64,000 bases of DNA from positions 342,325 to 406,324 of the forward strand of contig NZ_NCQY01000030.1 in assembly GCF_002894645.1 (NCBI RefSeq), written 5' to 3'. The translations under genes and the position numbers were made by a program. Positions 43,519-56,512 of this stretch are shown one piece after another (the first letter of the stretch is position 1; each line of letters opens with the position of its first letter). This DNA is from Salinibacter altiplanensis (GTDB taxonomy: Bacteria; Bacteroidota; Rhodothermia; Rhodothermales; Salinibacteraceae). The notes beneath the pieces were generated by a model. The model saw only the letters and a list, made by a program, of their open reading frames with translations, did no database searches and was not told the origin of the DNA.

Positions 43519-44922
43519 TTACCTCCGCTCGTCGTTGTTTTGCCCCACGGAGTCTCCGGGCGCTTCGTCGGGCTCCGGAAACTCGGCGTCTTCGGATGTA
43601 CCAATTCGATCCAGTGCTTCACGCGCTTGCCGACGTCGCTGATCCAAAAGATCGTCGTCCGTCTTCTGCTCCGCACGCGCCTGCAGGGGATCGACCACCT
43701 CCGCCCGCAAGACGATCATCAACTCCTGCTTCGTCACGTTCGTCTGCTCGGTCCCAAAAACGTAACGCAGCCCGAAGAACCAGCCCGGGAGATCTTTAAG
43801 AATGGGCACCCCGCTTCGGGAGGTCGTCTTTTGGGTCGAAATCAGCCCCCCAATGGCGGTCGCCTCGCCGTCGACCAGGAGAATCTGCGTGTTCGCCTGG
43901 TTCCGATTGATGATGGTTCCCGAGGGGCTCGGCTGGCTGTTTGAGTCCTCCACCTTTACGTCCATGTGCACAAAGTCCACGACGGGCGCCTCCGCCGTGT
44001 CCGCCACCGGCTGGCTAATGAGCGTTGGCGTCACGTCGACGATCACACCTGTCTCGAAAAACTCCGTGACCGTGTTGCCGGAGAAATCGGTGGTCTGGAT
44101 GGGAATGTCTTGACCAATCTGTATCTGCCCCTGCTCGCCGCTCTGAACCGTGATCTGAGGATTCGAAATGGTTCGGCCGATGTTGTCCTGTTCGAGGAGG
44201 TTGAGGAAGCGGCGAAACCGAGAAAGGGAAATCTGGTCCGGCGGCTGGAGAATGCCCTCGACGCTATCAAAGAGATCCCCGGTGTCGATTGTGAAGAGGC
44301 TCCCCCCTCCTTGCTGGCCCCCAGCCCCTCCTTGACCGCCCCCGCTTTGTCCTCCGCCCTGTCCTCCAGTTTGTCCCCCGCCTTGTCCTCCTTGATTAAT
44401 GGACCCGAGGAGATCATCCCAGCGCAGGCCGAGGTCGCGAACCTTCGTGAGGTTGAGATTGAAAAGGACCGCGTTGATTCGAATTTCGCGGGTCCCGATC
44501 TCGGCAGGAAGCGTCTCCGAAGGCTCCGTGGAGGCCGTCTCCGTGTTTTCGGACTCCTCCGCCGGCTGTACGAGAAAGGCCGTCTCGGTTTCTCGAAAGA
44601 CAAGGCCGTTCACCTCCAAGACGTTCTCGAACGCATCGAGGAAGTACGTTCCCGACACGGAAACGCCGATGGGCCCGGAGCGATTGCCCGGGTCAACGAC
44701 GGGCTTGTCCAGCTCCCGCTCAAAGATCGGACTAATGAGCTCAATGAACTGGTTGAAGGGGGTGTCCTGCTCAAACGACACCAGCAGCTCAGGAGAGATG
44801 TTGCGGCGCGTCTTCTGCCGCTCCGGCCGGTCTTGGGCCTCGGCGGGCAGACAGAAAAGGCTCCCCCAGGCGAGGATGAGAAGGACCGACACAAGACCTC
44901 GGAGGCGGGAAGGGCAGATCAT
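43519..44922 (-). CDS. pilQ: Type IV pilus secretin (PilQ/GspD-like)
   Basis: 467 residues, short for a secretin. Signal peptide about 1-29 (MICPSRLRGLVSVLLILAWG, ending AEAQ). A small N-domain with VSVSGTYFLDAFENVLEVNGL resembles the STN/N0 type. A Gly/Gln-rich insert (about 174-208) interrupts the start of the secretin domain. The domain itself has NPQITVQSGEQGQIQIG, VDVTPTLIS and RSGVPILKDLPGWFFGLRYVF, then TKQELMIVLRAEVV. The tail is acidic. Forms the outer membrane gate for pilus fibres. Confidence 0.9.
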   Translation of the reverse strand: MICPSRLRGLVSVLLILAWGSLFCLPAEAQDRPERQKTRRNISPELLVSFEQDTPFNQFIELISPIFERELDKPVVDPGNRSGPIGVSVSGTYFLDAFENVLEVNGLVFRETETAFLVQPAEESENTETASTEPSETLPAEIGTREIRINAVLFNLNLTKVRDLGLRWDDLLGSINQGGQGGGQTGGQGGGQSGGGQGGAGGQQGGGSLFTIDTGDLFDSVEGILQPPDQISLSRFRRFLNLLEQDNIGRTISNPQITVQSGEQGQIQIGQDIPIQTTDFSGNTVTEFFETGVIVDVTPTLISQPVADTAEAPVVDFVHMDVKVEDSNSQPSPSGTIINRNQANTQILLVDGEATAIGGLISTQKTTSRSGVPILKDLPGWFFGLRYVFGTEQTNVTKQELMIVLRAEVVDPLQARAEQKTDDDLLDQRRRQAREALDRIGTSEDAEFPEPDEAPGDSVGQNNDERR

Positions 44923-45037: not shown

Positions 45038-46030
45038 CTACGGATCCGTGGGCGCCCCGCCGCCTCCGTTCCGGAGCCGGAGGGGACTCTCTGAGCCCAG
45101 TGTGCGCTCGACGCGATCCACGATTCCTCCTCGGTTCAGGCGCGCCACGACTCGCCCCTCCGACGGGCGTACGTCCACGATGCGCCCCAGGTACACCCGG
45201 TCCCCCTCCCCCACTCGCTGAAGTTGGCCTTCGGCCTGGAAGACGGCTTTCCCGTTCACAATGGAGACCAACTGTGCAGACTCGACGTTCAGGCGGTCGT
45301 ACTGGTTGGGCGGCACCTCTTCGAAGACGAGAGGGTAGAATGGGTTGATCTCAGGCGCAGGCTTGGGGACCACCGAAGACGGGAGCGGAGGGCCAGTGGA
45401 GGCCTGCGCCACCGGCAGCCGTCCGGCCTCTTCCCCTTCGGAAGCGGAAGTCGGTGCGGGCAGACCCGTGGCGGCTCCGTAAATGGCCTCCACATCCATG
45501 TCAAACGAAACGAGGACCTTCATGGTGGTGCGCCCGCTCTCCTCGTCGGTCTCTCGTTCCTCAAGATAATTTAGGCTCAGGCCGCGGACGCGGTAGAACG
45601 GCCGGTTGTTTTCGATCGTCCAGACAAACTGGTAGAGGTTTGTAAAATAGGCCTTTCCCTCTGCATTGAACGTGTGCACGCTGTAGCCGTCCCGGTCCTC
45701 CGGGCCGGCCGACATCACGTCAAACTGCTGGAACCCCGTCTCAGTAAGTTCGGTGAGGTAGGACACGATGTCCGGAGACGAGATTGTCGCGGGCACCACC
45801 TTGTACTGAGTCCGCCACCGACGGCGAACGGTTTTCAGCCGTGACTCCGCGTTGGCACGATCGGCGCGGAGGGATCGAATTTCCTCCCGTCGTTGCTTCT
45901 GCTCCTCGATCTGTTGCTCTAGCGTGGCGATCGTGTCCTGCTGGCGAAAGTACGTGAGGTAGGTGCCCACGCCGGCCACCAGGACCAGACAGGCGGTGAG
46001 CAAAATTTGATTGGAGTCGAGCCGAAACAT
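45038..46030 (-). CDS. PilO-PilP fusion, pilus alignment protein
   Basis: 330 residues. The first part is PilO-like: one membrane segment (about 8-27), a coiled coil (about 30-70, EQQIEEQKQRREEIRSL), and a PilO ferredoxin-like domain (about 75-190). After a Pro/Ser-rich linker the C-terminus (about 235-330) resembles PilP: INPFYPLVFEEVP, QLVSIVNGKAVFQAEG, VGEGDRVYLGRIVDVRPSEG. In most bacteria PilO and PilP are separate. PilN is fused to the upstream gene. The call rests on pattern and position. Confidence 0.75.
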   Translation of the reverse strand: MFRLDSNQILLTACLVLVAGVGTYLTYFRQQDTIATLEQQIEEQKQRREEIRSLRADRANAESRLKTVRRRWRTQYKVVPATISSPDIVSYLTELTETGFQQFDVMSAGPEDRDGYSVHTFNAEGKAYFTNLYQFVWTIENNRPFYRVRGLSLNYLEERETDEESGRTTMKVLVSFDMDVEAIYGAATGLPAPTSASEGEEAGRLPVAQASTGPPLPSSVVPKPAPEINPFYPLVFEEVPPNQYDRLNVESAQLVSIVNGKAVFQAEGQLQRVGEGDRVYLGRIVDVRPSEGRVVARLNRGGIVDRVERTLGSESPLRLRNGGGGAPTDP

Positions 46031-46081: not shown

Positions 46082-48307
46082 TCAGGCCGAGCGTTCCGGG
46101 TCCGATTGATCGGGCGACGTAGACGGCGAGGCGGCCTCGGTGGGGGCTGTGTCGTCCTGCGCGTCCGTCGTCTCGAGCAGCCAGGCTCCCTTCGCGAGGG
46201 TGCCGTTCAGGTCTTGAAGAACCGAGAGTGCGTTCTGGACGGAGACGAACTGCCCGACCCCCACCCGGTACCGCCCATTTTCCGAGCTGTGCCAGATTTG
46301 GACCGGATGGGAATCATCCCCCAGGCGCTCTCGAAACCGCCGCACCGCCTCCTCGGCCGCTTCGCTTTCCAGCACCGAAGCCACAACGACCGTCCAGATT
46401 GAGGAGGCCTGATCGGTTGTGTCACGACGTGCTGCCGTATCTGCGCCTGATTGGTTTCCTCCACCATCGGCGGTTCTACTGGTATCAGGGCCGGCCGGAG
46501 CCGTCGCAGATTGCTCGTTTGGGGCTCCGGAGGAGTCTGAGGCGGGCGGCGGTGCAGTCGGCCCTGCCCCCACCGCCTCGTTCCCGCCGGCCAGCTGCTC
46601 GCCCCGCTGCTCTCGCCAGTACTCAATGGCCTCCGGCTCGGTGGTATCGAGTGGCACAGTCAGTTCAAAATCGAACAGCGACACGTCCCGCGTTTCTGTA
46701 AACGTGAGCTCCAGGATGCTGCCGTCCAGTCGCTGCGCCAGTTCAATCACCTTCGACCGGTCGGTGGACCGGCCGAGGACGGTGATGTCCGTTCCAGACT
46801 GCGGGCTCCACTGATCGAGGGTAAGGCCCCGGATGTCGTTCATCTGTCTCGTGATGGTGGCCAGCCCGCTGCTCCACTTGTTGCTTCCACGCAGGAGGGT
46901 GTGGATCGTCTCGTTTGCCTCGGTATACTCGGTCGTCGCGGCCTGCAGGCTGTCGATCCGCCGCTGGAGTGCCTCCCGGTCCACACGGCTCACCGTCTGC
47001 TGTAGGGGACGCAGCTCGGAGCGCTTCTCAGTAATGGTGCTCGCGTTCACGTAGTAGAGCCACACGAAGCCGAGGGTTACGACAGCGAGGAGCGTCAGGA
47101 GCGCGGGCACGGGCCACCCCACCGGGAGGCGCAGGCGACTCGCCTCGTACTTCTTCGCCAGCATGTTGACGGGCTGGAAGTACGACGCGAACTCGGCGTC
47201 GTCAAGCAGGCGAAGCGCCACGCCGGTGGCCCCCACATACGCCTCTCCCTCGGTGTCCTCTCCCCCGGGCAGGTGTGACCGCAGCACGTGGAGCTCGGCC
47301 GTGGAGAAGTACGACTTGAACGCACTGGCGAGCACCTTTTCGTCCTCCTCCGCGACGAGCATGAGGTGCTGCACCTGTCCCATCCCGTACTCGTCCTGCA
47401 GAAGGAGAACGCGACTGCAGATGGTCTCGGCGGAGTCCTCCGCCGTCAGCTCCGGAAGGTGCTCCGACTGGCGAAGCGTGCTGCCCTCGATGAAGAGGAC
47501 GAGCGTATCCTCGGTCCCGGAGCGCACGAAGATGGTCTTCTCGGGCGTGCCGGGCGGCAACTGAAGCACCGAGCGGGCGAGGCCCAGGTACAGGGACACC
47601 TCCGCGTCCAGCAGCCGCGTCTGCGGAGAGCGGGACAGGGTCTGGTCCTGCATCGCCTCGAGGGTGGACAGGACCGGGCCGCCGGGCCGCGCAATCAGGG
47701 CCAGCACCCGCTGGAACCCATCGCCCGTGCGGTGCATCGGCACGAAGCCCACCCGCTCCTCCTCCACCGTTCCTTCGTACTGGTCGTCCAGCATTTCCAG
47801 AAGCGTAGATCGGGACGCCGGGAGGGGAAGCCCGTGATCCGTCTCTTCGGCCTCCTCCTCATCGGTCTCGTCGGGCGGGAGACGGAGCTCTACGTCGTCG
47901 ATCTGGGACGTGGTGTTGCAGAAGGCGATCCTGGGGTCCTCGTATCCCCGCTCGGCACACTCGTCGAGCAGGGTGTCGAGTTCCACCTGAAAGCTCCAGA
48001 CCTCTTCGCCGTCGTTGGGGGCCCCGAGGGCCTCGTCCCCCTCACCGATGGTATCAAACTCCGATCCCATGAACATGTCATCGCCCCCACCCCCCTCGTC
48101 GCCAAACTGAATGGTGACGTCGTCAGGCTCCTCTTCGACGTCGGGCGCCATGTCGCCCGGCTCCTCGAACGGAAGGTTCTCCCCGTGAGGGTCCGACGGG
48201 CCGGACGACCACCGGAACTGGACGGTCGTCTCCTCCTCCGTACGGTCCAGCAGCACCGCGTGGAGGGTATCGGCCGATACCACTATGCCAAGGGCGTATG
48301 AGCTCAT
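46082..48307 (-). CDS. PilM-PilN-SPOR fusion protein
   Basis: 741 residues. The N-terminal about 390 residues look like the actin-like PilM fold: MSSYALGIVVSADTLHAVLLD and later FVRSGTEDTLVLFIEGSTLRQSE, with an acidic insertion at 45-105. One membrane segment at about 396-420 and a PilN-like coiled coil and domain follow (421-560, LQQTVSRVDREALQRRIDSL, LTLDQWSPQSGTDITVLGRS). An Ala/Pro/Gln linker leads to a SPOR domain (about 637-712, SIWTVVVASVLESEAAEEAV). SPOR domains bind denuded peptidoglycan. pilT lies 64 bases upstream. Confidence 0.75.
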   Translation of the reverse strand: MSSYALGIVVSADTLHAVLLDRTEEETTVQFRWSSGPSDPHGENLPFEEPGDMAPDVEEEPDDVTIQFGDEGGGGDDMFMGSEFDTIGEGDEALGAPNDGEEVWSFQVELDTLLDECAERGYEDPRIAFCNTTSQIDDVELRLPPDETDEEEAEETDHGLPLPASRSTLLEMLDDQYEGTVEEERVGFVPMHRTGDGFQRVLALIARPGGPVLSTLEAMQDQTLSRSPQTRLLDAEVSLYLGLARSVLQLPPGTPEKTIFVRSGTEDTLVLFIEGSTLRQSEHLPELTAEDSAETICSRVLLLQDEYGMGQVQHLMLVAEEDEKVLASAFKSYFSTAELHVLRSHLPGGEDTEGEAYVGATGVALRLLDDAEFASYFQPVNMLAKKYEASRLRLPVGWPVPALLTLLAVVTLGFVWLYYVNASTITEKRSELRPLQQTVSRVDREALQRRIDSLQAATTEYTEANETIHTLLRGSNKWSSGLATITRQMNDIRGLTLDQWSPQSGTDITVLGRSTDRSKVIELAQRLDGSILELTFTETRDVSLFDFELTVPLDTTEPEAIEYWREQRGEQLAGGNEAVGAGPTAPPPASDSSGAPNEQSATAPAGPDTSRTADGGGNQSGADTAARRDTTDQASSIWTVVVASVLESEAAEEAVRRFRERLGDDSHPVQIWHSSENGRYRVGVGQFVSVQNALSVLQDLNGTLAKGAWLLETTDAQDDTAPTEAASPSTSPDQSDPERSA

Positions 48308-48371: not shown

Positions 48372-49646
48372 CTAGAACAGGCGACGGAGGCGCTTCTTGT
48401 TGTTGGCGTAGTCCATCGCGTGCTCGGGCTTGATTTTTTTCTTTCGCACGAGGCGGTAGAGGTCCTGCTCGAGGGTGGTCTGTCCCTGCTTCCCCCCCTC
48501 CCACATCATCTGGTAGACCTCGCCCACGTTGTCATTCTTGATCGCCGCGCGGGCGGACGAGCCCACCCAGAGCACCTCTTTCGCCATCTGCCGCCCCCCG
48601 CCAACCTTGGGAAGCAGCTGCTGCGAGATCACGCACCGGAGCACGTCGGCGAGGCGGTGGCGCACGCGCTCCTGCTCCTCGGGCGGCACCTCCGCCACGA
48701 TGCGGTCGATGGTTTCCATCGCCGAGGAGGTGTGGAGCGTAGAAAAGACCTTGTGGCCCGAGTCGGTAATTTCGAGGGCCGCCTGGATCGTCTCCGGGTC
48801 GCGCATCTCCCCGATGACCACGATGTCAGGGTCTTGGCGCAGGGCCTGCGTGATGCCGGCCTTGAAGGTCTCTACGTCTTTGCCCACCTCGCGGTGGCGC
48901 ACGATGCACTTCTTCGGCTTGTGCATGTACTCCACCGGCTGGGCAATGACGACGACATGCCCAGGAAAATCTTCGTTGTTCGCGTCGATGATGGCATCGA
49001 GCGTGGTGCTTTTCCCCGACCCCGTAACGCCGGTGATGAGGGTGAGCCCGTCCCGCACGTGCCGGAACATCATGCCCTTCTGAATTTTCTCGTGGAAGCC
49101 CAAGTCCCCTAGGGCAAACACCTCGTCGGTGATGGCGCGCATGTTGAGGGCGGCGTGGTCGTAGTCCGAATACGCCGTGGCCCGGAAGCGGCGCGGTCGG
49201 CCGTCGTCTCCCGTCACGTCCGTCAGCCGGTACGAAAAGTCCGCCGCCCCCTCGTTCAGAAGCTGCTGGGTCTGCTTCTCGTTGAGGAGGTTGAGAACGA
49301 GGACGTCGGTCGCCAGCGGGTCGTATCTCCCGAACGCCTCCTCGCGTCGCTTTTCGCCGTCGACCCGGTACCAGATGTTGCCGTCACAGGCCCGCCCCCC
49401 GAGGTCCATGTCGCTGGCGTCGAGTGCCAGGGTCCGCTGGACGAACCGGTTTACGTGGTCTCGGAGGGCCGTCTCTTCGTTTGGCGGGAGCGAGGCGGTC
49501 TGCTCCGCCAGGTACCGGAGCCGCCGCTGGCCCCGGTACCCTTGGGGGATGGACTCAATGATGCGCGTGCAGGCCTCCGGCACGTCCTCATCGGCCGTGG
49601 CGCCGGGCTGCGCGGGGGCCGTCGCGGAAGAGGAAAAATTTTCCAT
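48372..49646 (-). CDS. pilT: Type IV pilus retraction ATPase PilT
   Basis: 424 residues. Walker A is LITGVTGSGKSTTLDAIID (about 204-222), Asp box HVVVIAQPVEYMHKPKKCIVRHRE, Walker B DPDIVVIGEMRDPET and His box HKVFSTLHTSSA. There is no tetracysteine zinc motif, as expected for PilT rather than PilB. The AIRNLIRE retraction motif reads AIKNDNVGE, a variant. The N-terminal 80 residues are longer than typical. The start MENFSSSATAPAQPG at 49646 is chosen. Powers retraction and twitching motility in the family. Confidence 0.88.
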   Translation of the reverse strand: MENFSSSATAPAQPGATADEDVPEACTRIIESIPQGYRGQRRLRYLAEQTASLPPNEETALRDHVNRFVQRTLALDASDMDLGGRACDGNIWYRVDGEKRREEAFGRYDPLATDVLVLNLLNEKQTQQLLNEGAADFSYRLTDVTGDDGRPRRFRATAYSDYDHAALNMRAITDEVFALGDLGFHEKIQKGMMFRHVRDGLTLITGVTGSGKSTTLDAIIDANNEDFPGHVVVIAQPVEYMHKPKKCIVRHREVGKDVETFKAGITQALRQDPDIVVIGEMRDPETIQAALEITDSGHKVFSTLHTSSAMETIDRIVAEVPPEEQERVRHRLADVLRCVISQQLLPKVGGGRQMAKEVLWVGSSARAAIKNDNVGEVYQMMWEGGKQGQTTLEQDLYRLVRKKKIKPEHAMDYANNKKRLRRLF

Positions 49647-49773
49647 GATCGGATGTCTCTCAGAACAAAGCACGCGGACCCATGACCGGTAGGCTCGCCG
49701 GGATTCGTCATACACCACAAGATTCGCGCCGACGATCTAGAACCAGGGGGCCGTGAGGGGTTTGCATGGGAAA

Positions 49774-49859: not shown

Positions 49860-50864
49860 CTACGATGAATTTGAATTCGGATCCGTCAGCGCCACGTCGA
49901 ACACCTGGTCGCTGAAGTCCGGAACGCTCCCGTAGTCCTCCAGGTCGCGAAGGCCCTCGCCATTGGACTCCCATCCCTCGCCTCCGTACGTCTTCTGCCA
50001 CCGATCCCAGCCTCCGTCGTATCGCGGATAGCCATTCTCCTTGATGTCCCACAGCTGGGCCTCCGAAAAGACCCGCTGGTCTTCGAAGGACACCCGCCAG
50101 CCGTCGGACGATCCGATGGTCGTCTCCTCCACCATGCCGTACGGCGCTTCCCGCATGGTATTGAGCTTATCGACGTCCTGCTTGAAGGAAAACTGGGTGT
50201 GGTCGTAGTCGTCGGGAAAATTGGCAGACTCGCTGCCTTCGTGGCTGCAGTTCTTGTCCACGGCCAGAATGAAGTTCAGCCGCGTTCCCGACTCGATGGT
50301 CTTGTCGTAGCTCGCGGAGGTGCCGTTGCGGTTGTTGCCGGGCGGGAAAATCATTTCGGGGTCGGGCTGATCCTTCGGCTTCGTGCCCGGCTTCACCCGC
50401 TTCAGGTAAATGGCCGAACAGTAGCCGGCCATCGACTGCTCGAACGTCACGTTGAGCTGACTGGGGACCTCAACCGTCGGGGCGTCCATCTTGTTGTTCG
50501 CGTATCCCCCGAGACGGTACTCCACGGTCGAATCCGCCACCGAGAACCGACTGACCGACACGGCTGTGTAGGCCGAGGAGCTTATTTTCTTCAACCAGGC
50601 CTTGTACGTCCCTCCCTCGTACTCTCCCTGAACCGTATCGACCTCGGAGACGACTTCCCCAACCTCTTTGTCCGGTTCGTCGGTCTTGTGGGCCTCGGAC
50701 AACACCGAATTGTATCCGGTCCGGGCAATCTGACGGGCGATGACCTCCCCCTGACGGAGCGACTGGCGTTCTCTCGTGTCGAGGGACGTTTGGTTTCCCT
50801 GGAATGCAAGAACGGTCACGGCGCCGACGACCGATAAGCTGAGAAGCAGACTGAATTTGCCCAT
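49860..50864 (-). CDS. Minor-pilin-like membrane-anchored protein
   Basis: 334 residues. The start MGKFSLLLSLSVVGAVTVLAFQGNQT gives a single hydrophobic helix at residues 4-21, like a class III or very-short-leader pilin. A coiled, basic stretch follows (TRERQSLRQGEVIARQIARTG), then a soluble Ser/Thr-rich domain. It resembles the PilX/PilW-type minor pilins by position and layout only, no family motif being clear. It lies last in the run behind pilB. The upstream open frame (to 51041) has no similarity and is left out. Confidence 0.6.
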   Translation of the reverse strand: MGKFSLLLSLSVVGAVTVLAFQGNQTSLDTRERQSLRQGEVIARQIARTGYNSVLSEAHKTDEPDKEVGEVVSEVDTVQGEYEGGTYKAWLKKISSSAYTAVSVSRFSVADSTVEYRLGGYANNKMDAPTVEVPSQLNVTFEQSMAGYCSAIYLKRVKPGTKPKDQPDPEMIFPPGNNRNGTSASYDKTIESGTRLNFILAVDKNCSHEGSESANFPDDYDHTQFSFKQDVDKLNTMREAPYGMVEETTIGSSDGWRVSFEDQRVFSEAQLWDIKENGYPRYDGGWDRWQKTYGGEGWESNGEGLRDLEDYGSVPDFSDQVFDVALTDPNSNSS

Positions 50865-50946
50865 GGCAAGTGTGTATTGTTTGTGTAAAGGTTGTTTTGG
50901 CCTCCTGACAGCCGAGTTCGTCCCCCTCATCCGACGGGGGCATTTC

Positions 50947-51774
50947 TCAGGGCTTCCCCCTTGAGCGGCCCCCTTTTCCACCGGGGCATTTGTTGGAGCC
51001 TTTGCTTCCGCCCGATGCCGTGTACATGCACGCCGCCGCACACCCGAAGGGCGTGCCGGTCGGGTCCGTCATCTCTTTCCACCCCTTGGGCGTGCAACTT
51101 GCCGCGTTCTTCGGAACGTTGATTACACTGGCGTCCGATTGATCTCGGACGAGCAGGACCGATCCCACATGCGTGGCCTGTGGAAAGGTCTGCGCATTTT
51201 GGAAGGGCGATACGACGGAAAATCGGACCCGGACGCTATGAACCTGTTCTCCGTTGGCAGCCGGGTTGGCGACCGGATTGGCGTCTTTATCTAGCAGGGA
51301 AATCTTGAAGTAGCCGAGCGAAGAGGGACTCACCCCTTTGACATCAGACCAGGAGGACCAGCTCCCCGTCCCCATTTCCTTTCTCCGCTTCCTGCGAGTG
51401 AGTTCGTAAAGGGTCTTTTCCGTTCCATCGACCATGCGGGTCCCTTTCGGGCTCACTTTATACCGGGTGGCGATCCGGTATTCCTGATCGCTGCTACTGG
51501 CAGTGGTCGAGTCACGGTAGAACGTGAACTGAGTAGTGATGTCGGATCCCGTCGGGTTCTCAAACGGAGTCCGTTCGCTCTCTTCAAAGTTTTCCCCCAT
51601 CCGCTGGATGTCTTCCTCGAGCCACGAGGCGAAGGTCTGTGTGAGTTCCCCCATCCGATTCCGCGATACCTCCGCCACGCTGTTCTGCGTGGCCCGGGAC
51701 TGAATGGACAAAAGGATCAAGGTCGTCATCAATGCAACGACCGTGGCGGTTAAGTTATCGTAGAGAAACTGCAT
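50947..51774 (-). CDS. Minor-pilin-like membrane-anchored protein
   Basis: 275 residues from MQFLYDNLTATVVALMTTLILL at 51774 (an ATG at 51783 adds three). One N-terminal hydrophobic helix is followed by SIQSRATQNSVAEVSRNRMGELT and a beta-rich domain. The C-terminal quarter has four cysteines (CTPKGWKEMT and later) and a basic Gly/Lys-rich end. Resembles the PilW/PilV layout. No GFTLIE-type prepilin motif is present. Located between two similar genes behind pilB. Confidence 0.6.
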   Translation of the reverse strand: MQFLYDNLTATVVALMTTLILLSIQSRATQNSVAEVSRNRMGELTQTFASWLEEDIQRMGENFEESERTPFENPTGSDITTQFTFYRDSTTASSSDQEYRIATRYKVSPKGTRMVDGTEKTLYELTRRKRRKEMGTGSWSSWSDVKGVSPSSLGYFKISLLDKDANPVANPAANGEQVHSVRVRFSVVSPFQNAQTFPQATHVGSVLLVRDQSDASVINVPKNAASCTPKGWKEMTDPTGTPFGCAAACMYTASGGSKGSNKCPGGKGGRSRGKP

Positions 51775-51826
51775 GGCGGACAATGACTCTGTGAGGGGAG
51801 TCCGGCGTCGTACACCGCTGTCGCTT

Positions 51827-52339
51827 TTAGTAGTAGCTCAGGACCTCCGAAAATCGGATCGGATCGGTCAAGAAGGGGTCGTCCCCCGCGTCCTGGATAT
51901 AGATCACGACCTCTTTCCGAAACGTGGGCCCCGCGACCTCCTGCATGCTTGCATCCACGTAGTGGACCTCCACCTCGACGGTAAATTCCATGTCGAATTC
52001 CGGGGTCTCGAAGGTCTCAGTGCTGGGCTTCATGTCGTGAAAGTCCCCCACCGAGTCACAGGTTTGACTGCCTCCGAATGCCTGGCAGGCCATTCCTGTC
52101 TCGAACGAGTTCTTGAATTTCGAGGGGTCGGTAATCCGCTCTTTGGTCCCCCCCACGGTCGCCTCGTCGAACGCCCGCGCCCGGATCACCTCCATCGTCT
52201 GCATGCTCACCCCGAGGGCCATCTGCTCCATCTCCGACCGGACCACCTGCCGCTGCTTTTGCAGCTCCGTCTGCATCTGGTTGAAGTTGAAGAACGTGGC
52301 CATCATGAGCGCCAGAAGGGCCAAAAGCGTCTGTTGCAT
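51827..52339 (-). CDS. Minor-pilin-like membrane-anchored protein
   Basis: 170 residues. MQQTLLALLALMMATFFNFNQM forms the N-terminal helix, which continues into a charged heptad-like stretch (MQTELQKQRQVVRSEMEQ), as in pilin alpha-1. The remaining domain is beta-rich with two cysteines (MACQAFGGSQTCDS). No canonical leader or Glu5 is present. First of the three small genes after pilB, 106 bases behind it. Function is inferred from position. Confidence 0.6.
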   Translation of the reverse strand: MQQTLLALLALMMATFFNFNQMQTELQKQRQVVRSEMEQMALGVSMQTMEVIRARAFDEATVGGTKERITDPSKFKNSFETGMACQAFGGSQTCDSVGDFHDMKPSTETFETPEFDMEFTVEVEVHYVDASMQEVAGPTFRKEVVIYIQDAGDDPFLTDPIRFSEVLSYY

Positions 52340-52445: not shown

Positions 52446-54755
52446 CTACGTCGCCACCACCCGGACCATCTCCTCGACGGACGTCTCCCCGTTCAGAATG
52501 GACTCTCGGGCCGAGGCCTGGAGCGACCGCATACCGTCCTCCTGCTCCGCGTGCTTCCGGATGGCTCCCTCGTCGACAATGCCCTCCGCCTCAACGATCA
52601 TGTGGCGGATCGGCTCGGTGAGGTACAGGGCCTCCGCGATGGCCCGTCGTCCGTCGTAGCCGGTGCCGCCGCACTGACTGCACCCCCCCTTGTCGTCCGC
52701 CGCGTAGAACGTGCCGGTGGTGACCTCCTCCTCCGAGAAGCCCAGCTGCCGCAGCTTTACGGCGTCCGGGTTCCTAATCTCTTGCTTGCAGTTCGGGCAG
52801 AGCGTGCGGATCAGGCGCTGGGCCACCACCAGGTTGATGGCGTAGGCAATCAGGAAGGGCTCGATGTCCATCTTGTAGAGGCGGCTCACGGCACTCGGCG
52901 CGTCGTTGGTGTGAAGCGTCGAGAACGTGAGGTGCCCCGTGTTCGCGAGCTTGATGGCGAGCTCGGCCGTCTCCTTGTCCCGCATCTCCCCCACCATCAC
53001 CGTGTCCGGGTCGTGGCGCAGGATCGAGCGGAGGGCGTCTTTGAGCCGCAGCTTGTCGCTCAGCTTAATCTGCCGCGCCCCTTCGATGATGTACTCCACC
53101 GGGTCCTCAATCGTGAGGACGTTCTCGCCCGGCCCAATCACGCGGTGCAGCGCCGCCACGAGCGTCGTGCTCTTCCCGGAGCCCGTGGGCCCGGTCAGGA
53201 TGACCATGCCGTTGGGCTGGTTGATCGCGTGCTCGAACCGGTCGAGCGCCCGCGGCCCCAGCCCCAGCTTGGTGAGGTCCGTGATGACCTTGCGGTCGTC
53301 CAGCACGCGGATGACGACGCTCTCCGAGTCGATGTCCTGGTTGGAGCTGGCGATCGGCATGATGGAGACCCGGTACCGAATCCGAGTCCCGTCCACGTCG
53401 CGCTGAATGAAGCCGTCCTGGGCGGCGTCGCTCTCGAAGCGATCGACGCTCATCGCGTTGTCCTTGATCACCGACAGGAGGGCCTCCGGATGCACGCGAT
53501 CCTCCGTGTGCCAGTGGTTCAGGCGCCCATCGACCCGGAAGTGAATTTCGACCTCCTTGTTCGAGTTGGGATAGATGTGGATGTCGGACGCGCCCTCCCG
53601 CACCGCCTCCACGAGGGTGGCCTCGAACAGATTGATGAGCGTCGACCGGTTGATCTCCTCCTCCAACTTCTCCTCGTCGACCAGGTCTTCCTCCTCCTCA
53701 AAGTTCTGCCCGAGGTCGACGGTCGACTCGTCGTCGATGCGGTCCAGGTACTCGTTGTCTTTCGGGAAGGCCTCCGAAAGCAGCTCGTTGACGGCCGACT
53801 TGGGCGCGTACTGGAGCTCAAACGCACTCAGGTGGAGCGAGCGGGCCGCCCGATGCACCTCCGGGCGCATCGGGTCGTGGGTAATGAGGATTACCTTTTG
53901 TCGTCCCTCCGCGCGCTGGACGTGGTGGGGAACGAGCCCTAACTCAAAAAGCTGCTCCTGCTGGTCTTCGGTGAAGGTCTCAACCGTGGACCGGACGAAG
54001 TTCAGGTCGGGGCCTTGGGCTTCGAGGTCCGCCACCGAGAACGCGTAGATGCGGGCCGCCCGCTCGTAAACGACCTCCTCGTCTACCCTGTCCTGCTGAG
54101 CCAGTACCCGCCAGAGGGCAAGGTCCGCCTCTTCCGTGTCGCGCTCTGCCTGCGCGGCCTCCACCGCCCCCGCACTCACGACGCCCCGTCGAAGCAGCAT
54201 CTCCACGACCCGGTCATTGGTCCCGACCGAGGAGTTGGAGGCCATGCGGGAGGCGGCCTCGTCGATCATCTCGGTGTCAATCTCGGCCTCGAGCTCGTCG
54301 AGCGCCTCCTCCGGGCTCGGAAGACCAGGGCCCCCGTCGGTGGGGGCATCTACCTCCCGCGGATCGTCGAGGTCGGGGGCCGGAGCAGAAGGGTTTGGCG
54401 CCTCCTCCTCGGGGGCCGTGTCCAGGTCTCCGGGGGCTGGAGACCCGTCCCCGAGCGGCTCAGGGGACACGTCCGCCCCAAAATTCGTGTCTCCGGGGGA
54501 GTGGCCGTCCGACGTCGTTTCCTCGTCGTTGGGGGACACGGGCAAGCGGTTTCTCGCCGAGAACGGGGGCACGGCAAACCGAGGAGAATCCACCGGCCCC
54601 AGCGTCAGGGCCTCTGGACGAGGTCCTCCCCCCAAAGAACGGGACGGCTCTGTGGTCGAGCCCTCTTCTCCACGGTTCGGGGCAGAGGGAGAGGTCGTGT
54701 TCTCCTCCTCCGTCCGAAGAGAAAACGTATGGTCGGTGTCGGTCGAATTGCTCAC
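52446..54755 (-). CDS. pilB: Type IV pilus assembly ATPase PilB
   Basis: 769 residues, the extension motor. The first about 165 residues are an acidic, Pro/Ser/Thr-rich, probably disordered region. An MshEN-like domain (about 180-330) follows, then the core with Walker A LTGPTGSGKST (520-530), Asp box TIEDPVEYIIEGARQIK, Walker B DPDTVMVGEMRDKET and His box HLTFSTLHTND. The zinc cysteines occur in LCPNCKQEI (653-656) and CSQCGGTGYDG (692-695), diagnostic for PilB/GspE. pilC lies 56 bases upstream. Confidence 0.93.
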   Translation of the reverse strand: MSNSTDTDHTFSLRTEEENTTSPSAPNRGEEGSTTEPSRSLGGGPRPEALTLGPVDSPRFAVPPFSARNRLPVSPNDEETTSDGHSPGDTNFGADVSPEPLGDGSPAPGDLDTAPEEEAPNPSAPAPDLDDPREVDAPTDGGPGLPSPEEALDELEAEIDTEMIDEAASRMASNSSVGTNDRVVEMLLRRGVVSAGAVEAAQAERDTEEADLALWRVLAQQDRVDEEVVYERAARIYAFSVADLEAQGPDLNFVRSTVETFTEDQQEQLFELGLVPHHVQRAEGRQKVILITHDPMRPEVHRAARSLHLSAFELQYAPKSAVNELLSEAFPKDNEYLDRIDDESTVDLGQNFEEEEDLVDEEKLEEEINRSTLINLFEATLVEAVREGASDIHIYPNSNKEVEIHFRVDGRLNHWHTEDRVHPEALLSVIKDNAMSVDRFESDAAQDGFIQRDVDGTRIRYRVSIMPIASSNQDIDSESVVIRVLDDRKVITDLTKLGLGPRALDRFEHAINQPNGMVILTGPTGSGKSTTLVAALHRVIGPGENVLTIEDPVEYIIEGARQIKLSDKLRLKDALRSILRHDPDTVMVGEMRDKETAELAIKLANTGHLTFSTLHTNDAPSAVSRLYKMDIEPFLIAYAINLVVAQRLIRTLCPNCKQEIRNPDAVKLRQLGFSEEEVTTGTFYAADDKGGCSQCGGTGYDGRRAIAEALYLTEPIRHMIVEAEGIVDEGAIRKHAEQEDGMRSLQASARESILNGETSVEEMVRVVAT

Positions 54756-54811: not shown

Positions 54812-56167
54812 TTACATGCCCATCATGTCGGCCTGCGACGGCTGGATGAAGGCCATCTCCGCCGAAAGAATGGTGAGGAAAAGCACCCCGATGGCGATGA
54901 TGATGGACACCCCCGTCTGGATGCTCTCCACCGCCGCGTCGAGGCTCAGCTCCGTCTCCTGCTCGTAGTAGTCGGCCATCTGCCGGGCACTCTCGCGCAC
55001 GCTGCCCGTCTCGGCCCCGCTCTTAAAGCGCGTGATGGCCATCGAGGTGAACACCCCACTGGCCTTGAGCGCCTGCACGAGGCTCGCCCCCTGTGCCGTC
55101 ATCATGGGGATGGTCACGTTCCGGATGCGGTACTCCATGTACTTGTTGCCACAGGCCTCGGCCGCAATCCGAATGACCCGCAGGTTGTCCCCGGCCCCCG
55201 AGTAGAGAATCGCAAACACCCGGCAGAAAATTTCGATGTTGATCTTGTGGAGCAGCTTCCCGATGAGGGGGATCTTGATCATGTACTTGTGAAGGTAGAA
55301 TTTCCCCTGCTCCGTTCGGGCCCAGACGGCAAACGCCAGGAGGGGCCCCACCGTCCCGATCAGCACCCACACCCAGTACCGGTCCAGCCAGGCCGCCATG
55401 TCGAGCGAGAAGCTCGTAAGCGGCGGCATCGTCACGTCCATGCCCTCGAAGAGTCCTGCCGTGGCCGGCACGATGTACCAGATGTACCAGATCATCGCCC
55501 CAATCATGGCGACCGTGGTGACCGCCGGCATGATCATCGCGCTCCGGACCCGCGAGCTAAACTCGTCCTTCCGCTCCAAGAAGCGGGCCGTGGCCTCGTA
55601 GATCTCCGCCATGTTCCCGCTCTTGGAGGCAATGCCCAGCATGTAGGCCGTAAACTTGCCGAGCTTGTCCCGGTGCTTGTTGAACGCCTTCTCGGCGTTC
55701 ATCCCGCCCTTCAGGTCGGAGTTGAGGTCGCGAATGACCTGCTGGAGGCTCGTCGACGACACGTCGTTTACCAGCATCTCCAGCACCTCGTCGAACGGCA
55801 GATTCTCTCGGAGCAGGTTCGCCGCCAGCCGCACAAACATGATGAGGTCGTCCTGCGGCGGCGAGAACTCGAAGTCAAACCACTTCTTCCGCACCTTGAC
55901 CACCTCCAGGCCCATGTTTTCGAGGGCCTCCTCCACCTCCTGACCCGAGAAGGCCTTCTGCTCCCCCGTCTTCACGGTGCCATTCGGGTGGCGCACCTTG
56001 TAGGAGAAGGTCCGACGCTTCTTCAGGTCCGACGGCTTGAACCCGTGCTCGTCGGACAGGTCCTCCACCTTCTCGCGGGCCTTGCGCTTCGACGACGCCA
56101 TGATGGTGCCCTGCACCGACTGGCCGCCGGCCGCTACGCCCTGAAACCGGTATTCGCGAGTGGCCAT
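54812..56167 (-). CDS. pilC: Inner membrane platform protein PilC
   Basis: 451 residues from MATREYRFQGVAAGGQSVQGTI. The N-terminal cytoplasmic domain (KRKAREKVEDLSDEHG) leads to two T2SSF domains with three membrane segments (near 215-240, 265-290 and 425-447). Features include LAANLLRENLPFDEVLEML, AAEACGNKYMEYRIRNVTIPMM and GAETGSVRESARQMADYYEQE. It anchors the pilus motor. An ATG at 56326 would add 53 residues of intergenic sequence and is rejected. The first gene of the pilC-pilB run. Confidence 0.92.
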   Translation of the reverse strand: MATREYRFQGVAAGGQSVQGTIMASSKRKAREKVEDLSDEHGFKPSDLKKRRTFSYKVRHPNGTVKTGEQKAFSGQEVEEALENMGLEVVKVRKKWFDFEFSPPQDDLIMFVRLAANLLRENLPFDEVLEMLVNDVSSTSLQQVIRDLNSDLKGGMNAEKAFNKHRDKLGKFTAYMLGIASKSGNMAEIYEATARFLERKDEFSSRVRSAMIMPAVTTVAMIGAMIWYIWYIVPATAGLFEGMDVTMPPLTSFSLDMAAWLDRYWVWVLIGTVGPLLAFAVWARTEQGKFYLHKYMIKIPLIGKLLHKINIEIFCRVFAILYSGAGDNLRVIRIAAEACGNKYMEYRIRNVTIPMMTAQGASLVQALKASGVFTSMAITRFKSGAETGSVRESARQMADYYEQETELSLDAAVESIQTGVSIIIAIGVLFLTILSAEMAFIQPSQADMMGM

Positions 56168-56207
56168 GGCAAGGGAGGCTGGATTCGTCTGTTTTGATGT
56201 CTTTTGT

Positions 56208-56254
56208 GTAACTGTAGGAGTACCGAAAGTGTTTACTTTGCTCCTACAGATTAC
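56208..56254. promoter_or_regulatory. Inverted repeat upstream of pilC
   Basis: CTGTAGGAG (56212-56220) and CTCCTACAG (56241-56249) are perfect nine-base arms 20 bases apart. They extend to thirteen pairs if one base bulges (56208-56254). Located 41-87 bases upstream of the pilC start, it is a plausible operator or leader hairpin. The rest of this intergenic (56168-56512) shows no gene. Confidence 0.55.
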
Positions 56255-56512
56255 ACCCCACACACACTGTGCCGGATTTGGTCCCCGGCCTGTCGGCCTC
56301 TTCGTCCTGATTTGTTTGGGAGCCACCGTTTATTATCGACGCCATGAACGGAATCTTTACCTCCGCCTTCGATTGTCCTCTCCGCTAATCACTCAGAGGA
56401 TTCCATCCAGGAGGGCGTGCCACTTGTCACCAAAGCTGTACGGGTTGCCGAAGGGACCGCCCCAAGAATCGTCGGTCGCTCAATTCAGGGCGTCTCAGAA
56501 ATGCGCGGTGTC

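Follow-up and report, generated by a model that had tools for sequence, protein, structure and literature searches.

Within the 64,000-nucleotide stretch of Salinibacter altiplanensis DNA that was analysed (the window; contig NZ_NCQY01000030.1, from a 3.59-Mb genome that is 99.75% complete), a pilus operon contains a gene in which a PilM-like domain, a PilN-like domain and a SPOR domain follow one another in one chain. The locus raises the question of why a subunit at the inner-membrane base of a pilus machine should end in a SPOR domain, and whether that domain anchors the machine, places it, or does neither. Pilus retraction generates large forces. Anchoring of the inner-membrane base and the finding of the pole are understood mainly for AMIN-containing secretins and LysM partners, and a wall-binding domain on the PilM-PilN subunit would solve these problems in another way, from the inner-membrane side. 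The gene lies in a co-directional run of pilC, pilB, three pilin-like genes, pilT, the PilM-PilN-SPOR gene, a PilO-PilP fusion and a secretin gene, the coordinates of which are given in Table 1.

Table 1. Features of the PilM-PilN-SPOR gene and its operon (window coordinates), and PKD-SPOR genes of related operons (locus coordinates)
Feature	Coordinates	Strand	Basis
PilM-PilN-SPOR protein, whole gene, 741 aa	46082..48307	-	open frame and orthologues
PilM-like actin-fold cytoplasmic domain (predicted), residues 1-370	47198..48307	-	AF2 model, PDB structure matches
Acidic disordered insert in actin fold, residues 38-102	48002..48196	-	pLDDT about 31-35
VNMLAKK, residues 380-386, counterpart of PilN INLLP	47150..47170	-	family-profile alignment
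Single transmembrane helix, about residues 399-421	47045..47113	-	sequence; helix 399-435 in model
PilN coiled coil (444-491) and ferredoxin-like domain (495-552)	46652..46978	-	profile, Pfam, model
Disordered Ala/Pro/Ser/Thr-rich linker, residues 575-634	46406..46585	-	pLDDT about 30
SPOR domain, residues 635-713	46169..46405	-	Pfam, model, dN/dS
PilC/GspF platform protein	54812..56326	-	T2SSF E 1.5e-29
PilB/GspE extension ATPase	52446..54755	-	T2SSE E 5.4e-98
Three pilin-like genes	49860..52339	-	position, N-terminal hydrophobic helices, synteny in relatives
PilT-family retraction ATPase	48372..49718	-	TIGR01420 E 6.3e-91
PilO-PilP fusion, 330 aa, directly downstream	45038..46030	-	structure-model matches; order-wide conservation
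Secretin, 467 aa, without AMIN domain	43519..44922	-	Pfam Secretin E 2.8e-32
PKD-SPOR genes	L066:2220-3080, L063:15225-16487, L064:14941-16761, L131:7370-8134, L144:4080-5876		downstream in second pilus-like operon

Domains joined in the chain

In the AlphaFold model of the protein, built from a 21-sequence alignment (mean pLDDT 69.8), an actin-like domain leads into a membrane-crossing helix and a coiled coil, after which come a ferredoxin-like domain and a C-terminal beta-alpha-beta-beta-alpha-beta domain. The pLDDT of the actin-like domain was mostly 80-92 outside its insert, and values below 50 fell mainly in the acidic insert, the linker and the tail; an acidic stretch occupies the position of the insert in relatives too. 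When the model was compared with the PDB by Foldseek, the first nine matches were all PilM (best 5eoy, E 1.8e-11), and VIA-align matches, which cover residues 1-382, gave PilM 2ych a Z of 20.8 (rmsd 4.3, 276 residues), PilM 5eou a Z of 19.2, FtsA a Z of 17.8 and EpsL a Z of 13.7. In the predicted structure the domain is a PilM-type actin fold, and no PDB structure matched the model better than PilM. Sequence profiles did not detect PilM: Pfam PilM_2 (PF11104) matched neither the protein nor its relatives, the PF11104 matches in the genus fall on different genes with an actin fold, whose frame lengths make FtsA/MreB probable, and phmmer of the whole protein against the PDB returned nothing meaningful. 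When the PilM phosphate loops were read by eye, GIVVSA was found where GIDIGS is expected and VRSGTEDT where VDIGASST is expected; the acidic residues of both loops of the PilM ATP site (47198-48307) appear to be lost family-wide.

The topology predicted from the sequence has a positive-inside N terminus, with basic residues on the N-terminal side of one membrane helix, and a periplasmic C terminus. In the family profile the VNMLAKK motif aligns with INLLPVR of M. xanthus PilN; it sits inside the chain, unlike the N-terminal INLLP motif of PilN that PilM binds. The family profile also matched, at E 2.9e-8, the solved M. xanthus PilN (3jc8_Na, part of the 3jc8 model of the pilus machine), and Pfam PilN was detected in 13 of the 21 family members (best E 7.3e-6). 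A membrane helix, a coiled coil, a ferredoxin-like domain and a sequence relation to PilN are thus all present in this part of the chain.

On the full 741-residue protein SPOR was the only domain that Pfam detected (residues 635-701, E 6.9e-4), and its 20.3 bits are to be set beside the curated cut-off of 21 bits for PF05036. The SPOR region scored 25.5 bits (E 1.7e-5) when searched by itself, and a score of 24.6 bits came from the whole-genome scan; both exceed the cut-off, and ten out of ten aligned SPOR domains matched PF05036 (best E 6e-11). The model places in succession a strand (637-645), a helix (648-662), two strands (669-674 and 679-687), a helix (690-699) and a strand (709-713), which is the RNP-like order of a SPOR domain. 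The first-pass annotation had proposed that a PilM domain, one membrane helix, a PilN periplasmic domain and a C-terminal SPOR domain are joined in one chain; the joining (PilM fold at 1-370, helix, PilN at 444-552, SPOR at 635-713, in a frame of 741 residues), the helix with its PilN domain, and the SPOR domain are all borne out, and the PilM domain is recovered by structure but not by the Pfam profile.

Conservation, distribution and possible role of the SPOR tail

The SPOR tail was found in eight genomes of one clade of the genus (L001-L008). It is missing from the nine first-operon orthologues examined (G009, G010, G019-G022 and G024-G026), and the second-operon paralogues of PilM-PilN have none either. 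In other families of the order, the C-termini of 19 homologues were read, and none of them ends in SPOR. The tail is real and clade-restricted, and it is the novelty of this protein, the PilM-PilN fusion being the known GspL/PulL plan and order-wide. Every other lineage that has this operon is without SPOR, so the machine does not require it. The tree fits one origin of the tail, with weak clade support (52/34). Where the sister clade has SPOR, L009 (G009) carries an unrelated tail of about 100 residues; three frames of it were searched for a decayed SPOR domain, and no signal was obtained.

Constraint on the tail was estimated from pairwise dN/dS of the Nei-Gojobori type in nine pairs. SPOR gave 0.14-0.27 in most pairs and the PilN fold 0.11-0.18 in six of the nine; the linker evolves fast (0.28-0.66), and values of up to 1.0 were reached in the last 28 residues. 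Judged by these ratios, SPOR looks constrained, under purifying selection comparable to that on PilN in most pairs, while the linker and the extreme C terminus drift. In the most distant pair (L001-L008) the ratio was 0.59 for SPOR and 0.46 for PilN. Glutamine is the most conserved residue of SPOR domains and hydrogen-bonds glycan (RlpA Q270, FtsN Q251; PMC6895207); the position is Val in all eight SPOR-bearing orthologues and also in related SPOR domains of the same family, and the Phe four residues after it is replaced by Val or Leu. R681 of the YRV motif, the equivalent of FtsN R285, is conserved in all orthologues, the Ser of the first SPOR strand is kept, and SPOR domains contact glycan mostly through their backbone (PMC6895207). 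By sequence, the SPOR domains closest to the tail are those of HU-CCDC81-SPOR and OMP-PKD-SPOR proteins of the genus and family, which have the same Gln-less VAS motif but lie outside the pilus operon. They are the likely source of the tail on sequence grounds; a tree of 81 columns singled out no donor.

The protein is best explained as an inner-membrane subunit of the alignment complex of a type IV pilus machine whose SPOR domain anchors the pilus base to peptidoglycan and perhaps biases its siting, and we hold this reading to be moderately probable. The established roles are docking of the motor ATPases for PilM, pairing with PilO for PilN, and contact with the secretin for PilP (PMC4471445, PMC10191384). 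The cytoplasmic PilM-like domain would most likely dock the PilB/PilT ATPases, PilN in the same chain would have the PilO half of the adjacent PilO-PilP fusion as its periplasmic partner, and the PilP part of that fusion would reach the secretin. The linker and SPOR would have been added after PilN in one Salinibacter-like clade, and SPOR most likely binds wall glycan and would so anchor the inner-membrane base to peptidoglycan against the force of retraction; it may also bias the site at which the machine is built, the septum or a new pole. The N terminus is predicted to lie inside and the disordered linker is 60 residues long, which would let SPOR extend from the inner membrane to the wall. 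We infer that the protein belongs to a working pilus, that it binds the wall and that it anchors the base; a wall tether at the inner-membrane base is favoured, and septal or polar placement would be a possible consequence of it, speculative and drawn by analogy. The tethering of the pilus base by SPOR, as first proposed, is therefore compatible with the topology and a linker of about 60 residues, but the conserved Gln is replaced by Val, and this substitution is the main doubt. Relaxed constraint on SPOR in the L001-L008 pair, shared by PilN (0.46), and a stop codon ahead of SPOR in one genome (see below) also speak against a tether.

Whether SPOR acts mainly as a locator instead of an anchor, guiding the pilus base to glycan processed by amidases at the septum and thereby building machines into the new poles, was considered next to this, and we regard it as a doubtful but serious alternative. 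In other systems SPOR domains recognise the denuded glycan of septa (PMC6895207), and in P. aeruginosa and M. xanthus the AMIN domains of PilQ bind the wall and so recruit pilus machines to septa and poles (PMC5285504, PMC10653833). AMIN was found in none of the 15 family secretins scanned, in which the Secretin domain is present and STN often so, and nowhere in the source genome; LysM proteins are present in that genome, none of them in the pilus operon. However, the glycan-contact Gln is lost, and relatives that have neither SPOR nor AMIN keep the operon, so either another placement mechanism operates or placement is unneeded. The first-pass annotation had suggested that SPOR replaces other wall-binding factors; the lack of AMIN in the secretin and the genome agrees with this, but a one-for-one exchange of AMIN for SPOR is not borne out, because the secretins of SPOR-less relatives are equally without it. 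PilQ AMIN, FimV and the LysM protein TsaP are likewise wall-binding modules that site or anchor a pilus machine (PMC5285504, PMC10653833, PMC9239104), but in each of these the domain and the subunit are different, and the Salinibacter module sits at the inner membrane and not on the secretin. The Legionella type II secretin LspD, with a predicted N-terminal SPOR domain, also has SPOR in a machine of the type IV filament type (PMC6617341, PMC9239104), on the secretin as opposed to the PilM-PilN subunit; in the open-access literature, no PilN or GspL carrying SPOR was found.

A second, related pilus operon with a separate PKD-SPOR gene downstream was found in six genomes (G002, G003, G015, G016, G058 and G061) that span three families of the order (f1, f9 and f10). 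SPOR is thus tied to the pilus machines of this order twice and independently, as the tail of PilM-PilN and as a separate PKD-SPOR gene. It is tempting, if tentative, to suppose that SPOR was recruited twice to AMIN-less machines, giving a wall anchor or a septal locator based at the inner membrane instead of at the secretin, possibly with a Gln-independent recognition of glycan.

The tail could also be a recently captured passenger from the SPOR proteins of the genome, of which six SPOR domains were counted, with little or no role in wall binding. This is consistent with its restriction to one clade, with the loss of the glycan-contact Gln, with the weak constraint on SPOR in the L001-L008 pair, and with an in-frame TAG in G003 (L007:3180-3190, reading CGC TAG CAG) that separates PilM-PilN from SPOR and so cuts SPOR off; its near-twin G002 has a sense codon at that position. 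Selection on SPOR similar to that on PilN in most pairs, the preserved YRV arginine and first-strand Ser, and the retention of SPOR in eight genomes of different species argue against it, and we consider a passenger unlikely. The wall tether remains the favoured reading, and these close genomes, with SPOR, without SPOR and with a stop before SPOR, form a natural experiment that makes it testable by deletion of a single domain.

The pilus operon and its relation to type II secretion

An extension ATPase, a platform protein, PilMNOP, a secretin and PilT occur together in this locus, which is the gene content of a type IVa pilus machine, and the operon order (pilC, pilB, three pilins, pilT, the PilM-PilN gene, PilOP, secretin) is syntenic across the family. 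The model of the PilO-PilP protein matched both PilO (3jc8_Oa at E 5.2e-4, 5uvr and 2rjz) and PilP (2y4y, probability 1.00, rmsd 2.1). Because PilM-PilN and PilO-PilP are both fused, the four-protein alignment complex is cut to two chains in this lineage. The Salinibacter protein shares its folds and membrane topology with PilM and PilN from the type IVa pili of T. thermophilus, P. aeruginosa and M. xanthus, and its internal VNMLA is the counterpart of INLLP in PilN; however, those are two proteins where Salinibacter has one, SPOR has been added, and the acidic residues of the phosphate loops are apparently lost.

Across the order, 71 of 114 genomes (35 of 49 genera) carry the fusion of PilM and PilN, and in the order loci examined the PilM-PilN gene is followed by a PilO-PilP gene and a secretin. 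Both fused and separate forms occur, because the second operon of G061, on a single contig (L116:3508-6433), has PilM and PilN as separate genes. No PilM-PilN gene was found in three members of the genus (G006, G007 and G012), and the pilus operon was lost or never gained in these species.

A PilM-like cytoplasmic domain, a membrane helix and a PilN-like periplasmic domain in one chain are also the plan of GspL/PulL (PMC10191384, PMC4471445), and GspL/PulL/EpsL of type II secretion systems share it with Salinibacter PilM-PilN. This plan, together with a weak GspM match of the PilO-PilP partner, would fit a type II secretion locus with the protein as its GspL. However, the operon contains PilT, which type II systems are without, directly upstream of the PilM-PilN gene, the actin domain is far nearer to PilM (Z 20.8) than to EpsL (Z 13.7), the partner matches PilO and PilP, and the known GspL/PulL/EpsL proteins have no SPOR. 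The presence of PilT and the better fit to PilM rule out GspL as the main reading, and we judge a type II secretion system improbable.

The pilin-like genes had no Pfam pilin match, and their N-termini are without a canonical prepilin leader (GFTLIE-type site). Prepilin peptidase (PF01478) was detected in none of 13 genomes of the genus, with positive controls in 12 of 14, and exceeded the cut-off in only 8 of the 114 genomes of the order, compared with 71 for the PilM-PilN gene; a pilus-like machine without a standard prepilin peptidase would be surprising. A scan for promoters and terminators gave matches at chance level only.

Integrity of the reading frame

The gene (46082-48307, minus strand) is a single open frame with an ATG start, a TGA stop and no internal stop over 741 residues. 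The same domain order was found in one frame, covering residues 71-740 or more, in six of the seven other SPOR-bearing genomes, and the full-length frame recurs in independent assemblies at 54-79% identity. No missed frameshift, which the first-pass annotation had named as a concern, was present in the 741-residue frame, and the single-frame homologues in those six genomes show that the fusion does not stem from a frameshift in the source assembly. That the long frame is an assembly artefact fusing separate genes, as the stop at the junction in G003 and a change of frame near the N terminus in G001 might suggest, is hardly credible and is ruled out by the independent full-length frames, to which the order-wide PilM-PilN fusion is added. 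A search of named genome contigs returned one relative only, the metagenome-assembled genome Bacteroidetes bacterium QS_3_64_15. In G001 (L004/L067), the N-terminal 70-90 residues of the gene lie in a different frame from the remainder.
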